Source: Methanospirillum stamsii (GTDB lineage: Archaea > Halobacteriota > Methanomicrobia > Methanomicrobiales > Methanospirillaceae). From it: DNA of 64,000 bases. A program made the translations under genes and the position numbers. Where the stretch lies: contig NZ_QGMZ01000018.1 of the NCBI RefSeq assembly GCF_003173335.1, forward strand, positions 124,001-188,000, in the 5' to 3' direction. This document shows, in pieces, positions 5,363-56,668 of the stretch (position 1 is the first letter of the stretch; each line of letters starts with the position of its first letter). A model generated the notes under the pieces. It saw nothing but the letters and a program-made list of their open reading frames with translations, did not search any database and had not been told where the DNA came from.

Positions 5363-5595
5363 TGTTTAAAACAATCGGTTATGGGAAATTAGTTATCATT
5401 TTATTATTTTTTTGAAAGTCCCCGTCTCATTAATAAACCAGATGCAACCACCGGAAAGTTTCTTGTTTATTCAGGGGAGAAGATTTGAGATTTCTTCACT
5501 GAATTAATGAGAAAATTCACTTGAATGGAGTTTCAGACTATTTTCCAGCGGTTTTATCTATATCGCTTATACACTGTTTCAGACAACACTTGTAT

Positions 5596-5812
5596 GTCAC
5601 AAAGAGACCTGCCTTAAACATCCGGGTAACCGGAAACCCAAGGCAGGATCTCTGTAGGTGAGTAGCGTTCAACATGTCCTCCTACAAATGTTGCATCCAT
5701 CTCATCTTGTAAAAGAAACATCCCCGGTCAGGAGGGGTGTTTCATGTCCTCCGGATTCTCCTCTCCTGACCAGAACCTAACTTCATCCGGCCGATGATAT
5801 GGCCGGTTTCCT
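5596..5812 (+). ncRNA. Candidate structured RNA or 5' leader with interleaved stems
   Basis: There is no coding potential here, but stems are dense. First, a 13-bp helix with one bulge (5603-5615 with 5640-5653) encloses an inner hairpin TCCGG-GTAA-CCGGA (5621-5634) capped by a GNRA-type tetraloop. Second, TGTAGG/CCTACA (5653-5658 with 5681-5686) interleaves with CAACAT/ATGTTG (5670-5675 with 5688-5693). Third, GAAACAtCCCC pairs with GGGGTGTTTC (5715-5725 with 5734-5743), and its whole 8-nt loop is complementary to 5764-5771. Fourth, CCGGCC/GGCCGG (5787-5792 with 5801-5806). A TATA-like TTATACA at 5567-5573 would place transcription start near 5596. It could be an independent RNA or the leader of the next gene. 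Confidence 0.5.
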
Positions 5813-5849
5813 CCTACTAACAACAAGAACAGTATTTATGGAGATAGAT

Positions 5850-6101
5850 ATGCTTCTACAAAGCAAGTTTGACACAACATATAATGAAAGACAGATCTGC
5901 CTGATGAATTACCTGAAAAATACTGTAAAACCTGGTGCAAATTTTTTCAAGTCTAAGTATATCGCCAAGGATACCGGCCTCTCTTCAAAAGAAGTTGGTA
6001 CGAATATGGCATTACTTGCTGAAATGTGTCATGAGTTTAAAATTGAACGGTACAGTTACTCCAATAGTACCACCTGGCTGATAACGGCATCCCAGATATA
6101 A
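5850..6101 (+). CDS. Small winged-helix-type protein (DUF7123-like)
   Basis: About 83 residues. It resembles small archaeal proteins, known to me mainly from haloarchaea as DUF7123, in the segment YIAKDTGLSSKEVGTNMALL followed by a C-terminal SYSNSTTWLI. The spacing of predicted helices and the closing beta segment suggest a winged-helix DNA- or RNA-binding fold. Three in-frame starts exist (5799, 5838, 5850). The ATG at 5850 is chosen because GGAG at 5840-5843 lies 6 nt before it. It sits just downstream of the multi-hairpin region and may be controlled by it. The family assignment is from memory and the function is unknown. Confidence 0.7.
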   Translation: MLLQSKFDTTYNERQICLMNYLKNTVKPGANFFKSKYIAKDTGLSSKEVGTNMALLAEMCHEFKIERYSYSNSTTWLITASQI

Positions 6102-55303: not shown

Positions 55304-56668
55304 TTAACAAGCTTCACGGGTAAAGGTTATAGTGCCGCCTGCGGTAAGTGTATCAGTAGCATAATCATAATTCCCAAGCGACATAAACGTATATTCCCCA
55401 ATTGGTGCATCATTAATAGTTTGGGTACCCTGACCACCATCATAATTAGATGGCCCTGTGAGTTCCCACCAACACTGCGCTACGATAATTATTGTCCCTG
55501 TTTGTGGATTTGGTGTTGGGGTTGGTGTAATACTTGTGCGACTTAACCTATCGTAGTCATCTGGATCTCCTGTTCCGGTTATTCCTGAAGTATATGCTGG
55601 ATCTCCGAAGGTCTTCTGGAATGTCTTTATGCCCCCAGTAACTGATGCTACATCTCTCCAGTTGTTCGTAGCAGAGGGGATATTGTTTCGTCCGTGAGCT
55701 TCCATGATTGACCCTCCGAACAAGGTTTTTACTGCTCCCTCAGCAAAACCACTGTTTGAATTCGAATCCGGTGAGACTGCAATCCGATAACTCATCGCTC
55801 CAGGTACATCGCCTGTTTCTGCAACACCTCTAACCGCACCTCTGGAAGAAATCTGACCTGAATTCATATTGACAAGTTCACTTTTTGCTTTGACTACATT
55901 ACAAAATGCAGGAATGATGGATCCTGAAGTATCAGTAAAAACACAACGAATAGAATCCCCGGTTCGCTCCCAGTTTCCTGCGACATCAAAAACCCATTCC
56001 TCCGACCCGATTAAATGAGCCCCTTCAGTACTCGCATAGGTCAGAATTTTCTCTGATTTGAGGTTGGAGAGGCTTTTTCCTTTATCCTGTGAATCAAAAT
56101 CAATGTTTTTGTTTAGAGATATCTTACCCCCGTTGCTACGCAGAAAATCTGTCCAGGTAAGGATCATGATCTCTTCAGTTGAATTGAGTTTAGTATTGTG
56201 AATGGATCCTGTGTCTATTTTCTGATCAACAATATAATCGTTGTAATCTTCATCTAATGTCTCTAACAGTTCTCCCCAAGATGTAGAAGTGCCCGGAATA
56301 TGCTTGGTATATAAATAATCATCAACATTGAGATACGTCAGACGCAGGTTGCCGTTATTATCTTTTACCCATTTATAATCTGCAGAATTGAGATCGTTTA
56401 TTGCACTCGCAATGGTCTGCGATGGCGAATATAAATTATTTACATTGTATCCGTCGGCTACATATGCGTAATGAACAGCTCTGTTCTGGTCATCCAATGT
56501 CCAGTCCAAACTACTTTCATCATATATCGGTCCTGTTGAATCGATCAAAGTATCAACGGTAAATATCTGGTTTTCCGGAACCTGTGATGGAAGGCGATCT
56601 GCAGTTATTATGCCAATTAATATTATGAATGTCGCCAAAATTATGGAGATTGAGATATACTTTTTCAT
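55304..56668 (-). CDS. Secreted protein of unknown function
   Basis: 454 residues. The signal peptide MKKYISISIILATFIILIGI is followed by a mature region rich in Asn, Ser, Thr, Asp and Tyr with only three cysteines late in the sequence. I recognise no domain. The C-terminus has a Pro/Thr spacer (TPTPTPNPQTG) then a beta-rich end (TIIIVAQCWWELTGPSNYDG), an arrangement typical of cell-surface proteins. GGAGGAAAG precedes the ATG. The gene is AT-richer than its neighbours. A cell-envelope or sheath-related role is possible but nothing in the sequence proves it. Confidence 0.75.
   Translation of the reverse strand: MKKYISISIILATFIILIGIITADRLPSQVPENQIFTVDTLIDSTGPIYDESSLDWTLDDQNRAVHYAYVADGYNVNNLYSPSQTIASAINDLNSADYKWVKDNNGNLRLTYLNVDDYLYTKHIPGTSTSWGELLETLDEDYNDYIVDQKIDTGSIHNTKLNSTEEIMILTWTDFLRSNGGKISLNKNIDFDSQDKGKSLSNLKSEKILTYASTEGAHLIGSEEWVFDVAGNWERTGDSIRCVFTDTSGSIIPAFCNVVKAKSELVNMNSGQISSRGAVRGVAETGDVPGAMSYRIAVSPDSNSNSGFAEGAVKTLFGGSIMEAHGRNNIPSATNNWRDVASVTGGIKTFQKTFGDPAYTSGITGTGDPDDYDRLSRTSITPTPTPNPQTGTIIIVAQCWWELTGPSNYDGGQGTQTINDAPIGEYTFMSLGNYDYATDTLTAGGTITFTREAC

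Follow-up and report, generated by a model that had tools for sequence, protein, structure and literature searches.

Genus-restricted structured leader RNAs of Methanospirillum with probable antisense function towards the sheath protein gene mspA

The segment 5540–5860 of the window (the whole stretch of 64,000 nucleotides from Methanospirillum stamsii analysed here) comprises a promoter and the ~250-nt leader of a gene for a winged-helix DUF7123 protein. This leader probably belongs to a multi-copy, genus-specific family of trans-acting antisense RNAs, most of them 5' leaders of DUF7123 mRNAs, which silence translation of the sheath proteins. The structure of the leaders, their conservation, a specific two-part complementarity to the mRNA of mspA and matched changes in RNAs and targets were established computationally. 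The sheath of Methanospirillum is a functional amyloid and the defining structure of the genus. Few archaeal small RNAs are known to have a named target; here, a specific RNA–mRNA pair is proposed in the type strain, seen via matched changes in several lineages, and the layout, with antisense RNAs as leaders of a paralogous regulator family, is unusual. Literature searches revealed no paper on this RNA, on DUF7123 or on how the Methanospirillum sheath is regulated. The features of the window copy are as follows:

5530–5593, plus strand: conserved promoter, 78–88 % identity in copies across the genus
5530–5538 and 5576–5584, plus strand: direct repeats GTTTCAGAC, conserved in class-1 copies
5566–5573, plus strand: BRE/TATA-like element CTTATACA, from sequence
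5594–5601, plus strand: invariant ATGTCACA; offset of TGTCAC from the promoter identical in all copies
5603–5653, plus strand: stem P1 with apical hairpin; AGAGACCTGCC (5603–5613) pairs with GGCAGG-a-TCTCT (5642–5653)
5657–5706, plus strand: stem-loop P2; outer pairing GGTGAG/CTCATC, inner pairing CAACAT/ATGTTG
5677–5686, plus strand: m1, TCCTCCTACA, anti-Shine-Dalgarno (anti-SD) seed in the P2 loop; complements the mspA ribosome-binding site (RBS) TGTAGGAGGA perfectly
5715–5771, plus strand: P3 block of subgroup A; hairpin 5715–5725/5734–5743, with loop GGTCAGGA complementary to 5764–5771
5776–5786, plus strand: start-codon seed (core AACTTCA, 5779–5785), complementary to mspA GUGAAGUU
5787–5806, plus strand: hairpin P4, flanked on either side by an antisense seed
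5807–5817, plus strand: m2, TTTCCTCCTAC, the other anti-SD seed; its partner in mspA is GTAGGAGGAAA
5840–5843, plus strand: Shine-Dalgarno (SD) sequence GGAG of the DUF7123 gene, from sequence
5850–6101, plus strand: DUF7123 gene, 83 aa, winged-helix fold (Pfam PF23438)

A DNA search of 41 genomes detected matches to 5540–5860 in all 12 Methanospirillum genomes (one to six each) and in none of the 29 genomes outside the genus; the conservation in related genomes to which the initial annotation had looked is thus borne out. Four leader subgroups were distinguished: A (including the window copy), B, C and D. Of the ~31 class-1 copies, 27 are followed by a DUF7123 ORF, intact or as a broken remnant; the ORF is lost at leaders L009, L016 and L021_6647 and broken at L014. 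The ORF at 5850–6101 was assigned to DUF7123 (PF23438; E 3e-12, 46.9 bits, cut-off 27), and its AlphaFold2 model (mean pLDDT 86, order H-E-H-H-E-E) found its best solved-structure matches by Foldseek, weak ones, among winged-helix regulators. In the class, every genome searched has one leaderless, housekeeping DUF7123 gene (119/119). Methanospirillum possesses one to four extra DUF7123 genes per genome, and among archaeal members of this family it is only these extra paralogs that carry the leader, which precedes every one examined and never the housekeeping gene.

The first ~70 nt are the best-conserved part of the copies across the genus (78–88 % identity). They contain the TATA-type promoter suspected earlier in front of the first stem, with CTTATACA at 5566–5573. 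The TATA box is bracketed by the GTTTCAGAC repeat (5530–5538 and 5576–5584) in an operator-like arrangement. Apart from two sites, which look like chance occurrences, the pattern of promoter plus initial transcribed sequence is restricted to leader loci in the 12 genomes, and controls yielded 0 matches. Judged from the sequence, the 5' end of the RNA is predicted within about 5593–5598, 22–27 nt past the TATA box.

The stems in 5596–5812 are real and belong to a genuine structured RNA. The window RNA (219 nt) folds at -80.7 kcal/mol compared to -56.9 ± 4.4 kcal/mol in dinucleotide shuffles (z -5.4; equally good shuffles, 0/200), and with the DUF7123 ORF downstream the earlier description of a compact structured RNA 5' of a small regulator-like gene proved correct. 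The sequences quoted in that description were likewise located as claimed, to within a few nucleotides: CATGTCCTCC at 5673–5682 and again at 5743–5752, GGTCAGGA at 5726–5733 with its complement TCCTGACC at 5764–5771, TGTAGG (5653–5658) and CCTACA (5681–5686), and CAACAT (5670–5675) and ATGTTG (5688–5693).

Pairing across the copies was assessed with an alignment-free arm-swap test, in which each 5' arm was combined with its own 3' arm or with that of another copy (5000 permutations), because the consensus from MAFFT and RNAalifold was uninformative owing to mixed subgroups and misaligned arms. Base-pair covariation, proposed earlier as a check, was found for P1 (0/5000; compensatory pairs counted), outer P2 (0/5000; 98 % of cells paired) and P4 (0/5000 overall, 17/5000 within groups), the last of these being a position at which many different stems occur across copies. 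Inner P2 was weaker (91/5000; 88 % of cells paired). The structure drawn for nine subgroup-A sequences displays changes on both sides in 9 pairs versus 4.3 expected (0/500 shuffles). The P3 block occurs in nine of 12 subgroup-A leaders and is absent or replaced elsewhere; its hairpin was not significant in the arm-swap test (972/5000), and its loop-distal pairing is conserved and nearly invariant (275/5000). Based on these outcomes and on the confinement of P3, the structural core consists of P1, P2 and P4, and the P3 block is a lineage feature. Of the two interleaved pairings reported initially, the one involving TGTAGG/CCTACA found no comparative support as a pseudoknot (3697/5000) and was rejected; the other is confined to the subgroup-A insert and could be either a pseudoknot or a switch.

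The conserved parts of the leader are predicted to be single-stranded. They are TCCTCCTACA, which occupies the P2 loop (m1) and recurs immediately 3' of P4 (m2), and AACTTCA before P4. m1 is kept in every copy except the decayed L014, and m2 with few exceptions; the orphan leaders L016 and L021_6647 retain the start-codon seed, and L021_6647 retains m2. Predicted unpaired fractions are 0.71 for m1, 0.73 for m2 and 0.79 for the start-codon seed, at a leader mean of 0.45. The 16S rRNA of the window's genome has the 3' end CACCTCCTAAAG, and m1 and m2 therefore contain the anti-SD core CCTCCTA. The proposed masking of the leader's own RBS by CCTCC does not agree with these predictions, and the motifs pair with their own SD in a minority of copies; masking of the DUF7123 SD by m2 was also dismissed as a general rule, as it is not consistent across copies. 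The importance then ascribed to the CCTCC elements is retained on other grounds, since they contribute to a bipartite antisense match with mspA mRNA. A conserved short ORF starting from ATGTCCTCCTAC (MSSY) was ruled out by CATC in place of CATG in three loci, and also by m2 lacking ATG.

Targets were sought by pattern search, and three genomes were scanned in full for the 10-mer TCCTCCTACA. Apart from sites in the RNAs, the complement TGTAGGAGGA was found at the RBS of an orthologous secreted-protein gene in the window's genome and in G003, as well as at those of two G008 paralogs. The G003 protein (377 aa, 40.5 kDa, 23-aa signal sequence, Cys271) is with near certainty MspA, because size, signal sequence and Cys271 agree with the published major sheath protein of M. 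hungatei JF-1 (377 aa, 40.6 kDa, 23-aa signal peptide, Cys271; PMC6242892); it has a second cysteine at 257, which is absent from the description in PMC6242892. The start of mspA has the layout TGTAGGAGGA-AATTTAC-GTGAAGTTCGG, and the leader segment AACTTCA–P4 hairpin–TTCCTCCTAC is antisense to its SD and start codon (CGAACTTCAC–P4–TTCCTCCTACA in typical A leaders). The 3' segment covers the SD and the 5' segment the start codon, in correct antiparallel order and with P4 remaining folded.

Cofolding of the window copy with mspA yielded a three-way junction at -18.0 kcal/mol versus a mean of -6.0 for 23 control gene starts, all from the window (0/23 as good), and other leaders formed the same junction at down to -29.8 kcal/mol. 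Nineteen of the 23 A/B/D leaders surpassed all 23 control starts, a count which, like all counts over leader copies, does not comprise independent cases because the copies share ancestry. Paired with the mspA starts of their own genomes, the seeds reached -14.0 (A), -14.1 (B) and -17.6 kcal/mol (D), shuffled seeds -7.4, -9.0 and -8.6 kcal/mol, respectively (0/200 as good each). The fit is not uniform. That of the window copy is moderate and poorer than in most: its start-codon seed forms seven Watson-Crick pairs, and its m2 ends in one mismatch. Start-codon pairing is weak in L009, L018 and L026 too, and subgroup C (7/30 leaders, one of them in the window's genome) keeps m1 and m2 and is missing the start-codon seed (59/200 shuffles as good). 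The 3' flank of m1 has lower energy with the hairpin in the mspA 5' region than shuffled flanks in all classes and is individually unconvincing. In their 5' regions, mspA and most of its close paralogs share a conserved hairpin, GATGCTGAGAGTATCAGCAT, immediately 5' of the SD (L191–L202, L207, L208). The window itself contains an mspA-family paralog (458-aa open frame; 56486–56653, minus strand), the SD of which has no TGTAGG element.

The SD half of the match alone proves little, because an anti-SD motif is by nature complementary to many SDs. The two-part pattern TGTAGGAG-N3-9-RTGAARTTYG, searched in four whole genomes, occurred nine times, always at starts of the mspA family; class-wide, it was present in all seven Methanospirillum genomes drawn and in two of 142 others, both unrelated and hit by chance. 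Different RNAs carry different start-codon patches, which match different mspA paralogs. Within one lineage, the seeds CGAACTTCAC, TACGAACTTCAT, TCCGAATTTCA and AGAATCTCA accompany the targets GTGAAGTTCG, ATGAAGTTCGTA, TGAAATTCGGA and TGAGATTCT, respectively. Lineages with an mspA starting with GTG tend to TTCAC, those with ATG to TTCAT in subgroup-D RNAs, and paralogs with AAATTCGGA or AGATTCT correspond to RNAs of the same genome with TCCGAATTTCA or AGAATCTCA. Such matching of variants is what pairing partners should show, although the copies are related and not independent.

Based on these matches, we infer that the RNA is produced, pairs in cells and represses the mRNAs of mspA and its paralogs in trans, either free or still joined to the DUF7123 mRNA. 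On the 3' side of P4, UCCUCCUACA would pair with the mspA SD UGUAGGAGGA; on the 5' side, AACUUCA with its neighbours would pair with the start codon and codons 2–4, such that P4 loops out above the spacer and the P2 loop presents a second anti-SD copy. Pairing over the mspA start would block 30S binding and is therefore proposed to repress sheath synthesis.

Two known systems resemble this arrangement. sRNA162 of Methanosarcina mazei pairs with a trans-encoded mRNA, masks its RBS and uses separate domains for separate targets (PMC3510493); the mode, i.e. a methanogen RNA masking the RBS of a distant mRNA, is shared, and the leaders are specifically complementary to a distant gene at its SD and start codon, their pairing regions being predicted as single-stranded. 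Unlike them, sRNA162 is single-copy, concerns the MM2441/MM2440 transcript, is not a leader of regulator genes and has no envelope-protein target. Rhizobial alpha-r14/NfeR1 RNAs consist of several hairpins with identical, ultraconserved unpaired anti-SD motifs, which cover the translation start and cause silencing (PMC10746234). The likeness lies in a repeated unpaired anti-SD motif on stems of varying sequence; the rhizobial RNAs differ in being bacterial stand-alone sRNAs with the motif CCUCCUCCC, identical in three hairpins where the leaders have UCCUCCUACA twice, and without a start-codon seed across a hairpin. The leader RNA probably works like both and is a member of neither. Rfam 15 covariance models gave 0 matches to 5530–5900 up to E 5 and, at the gathering score, 0 matches to eight related loci, which agrees with the initial statement that no RNA family matches.

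Several other readings of the locus were weighed. The C/U-rich loops might constitute a general anti-SD RNA pairing with many SDs, mspA being one target among many. Repeated, identical, unpaired CCUCC on divergent stems is the exact alpha-r14 layout (PMC10746234), and RNAs of subgroup C, class 2 and class 3 have the anti-SD motif only. We nevertheless consider this reading unlikely, if the most serious of the rivals: the motif exceeds an anti-SD in length and specificity (invariant TACA), the genomes show no enrichment of its exact complement, and A/B/D copies add a seed specific for the mspA start codon. More improbable still is a leader acting solely in cis on translation of its own DUF7123 ORF, as riboswitch, thermosensor or, through its UCCUCCUACA loops, binding site for a protein, be it DUF7123 or a different one. 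The position of 27 of the ~31 class-1 copies before DUF7123 would suit it, as would a winged-helix protein able to bind nucleic acid and SDs predicted mostly paired (0.26 unpaired). However, the element pairing with the SD differs among copies, no conserved alternative fold over the own SD was found in the leaders, and with TGTAGG/CCTACA also unsupported the riboswitch suggested initially is not favoured. Control in cis alone moreover leaves unexplained the AACTTCA seed with its mspA start-codon match and paired variants, the orphan copies devoid of an ORF and the class-3 loci. Action in cis could occur in addition to action in trans. Least credible is that the leader is a by-product of recent duplication of the DUF7123 locus, the mspA match being chance or a relic of an inverted copy; the paralogy of the copies and the decay of some (L009, L014) would suit this, but compensatory changes accompany the divergence of the stems, the seeds have been kept, and those of a lineage track the targets of that lineage.

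Beyond antisense action in trans, the locus may form a two-output module, which we regard as a slightly doubtful extension: the leader would be antisense to the amyloid sheath family, the co-encoded winged-helix protein would serve the same programme, and the seeds would have diversified in tracking the expanding mspA paralogs. The role of the DUF7123 protein as a regulator on this programme is a guess. If true, an archaeal RNA family and a family of surface proteins would here be engaged in an evolutionary chase.

Loci with the motif beyond the leaders (class-2 and class-3 RNAs) have the anti-SD motif only and are devoid of the start-codon seed. A second locus per genome (L159–L164, L166–L168, L171) combines a CATGTCCTCCTACA loop with a related promoter and a related start, ATGTCACAGGAAGACCTG; in the window's genome, it lies outside the window (G000:C10, about 112,060). 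It precedes a small ORF ending in DLVxSDDxFLDQLExMHYLxFSD and adjoins a conserved gene; in some species, the ORF contains the motif as MSSY. Three genomes possess a third locus (L034, L165, L170), which has the promoter with a TCCTCCTACA loop and no ORF; a hairpin followed by a T run at L165 and L170 suggests a stand-alone small RNA. A possible second target, TGTAGGAGATwAACCGGTGAAATT, was observed at G003:C1:138041-138064, G009:C25:9708-9731 and G001:C1:1269191-1269214. In L027 (G005:C164:1336-1357), the start-codon seed and CTCCTACA are separated only by a short spacer, constituting a near-continuous antisense of the target layout.
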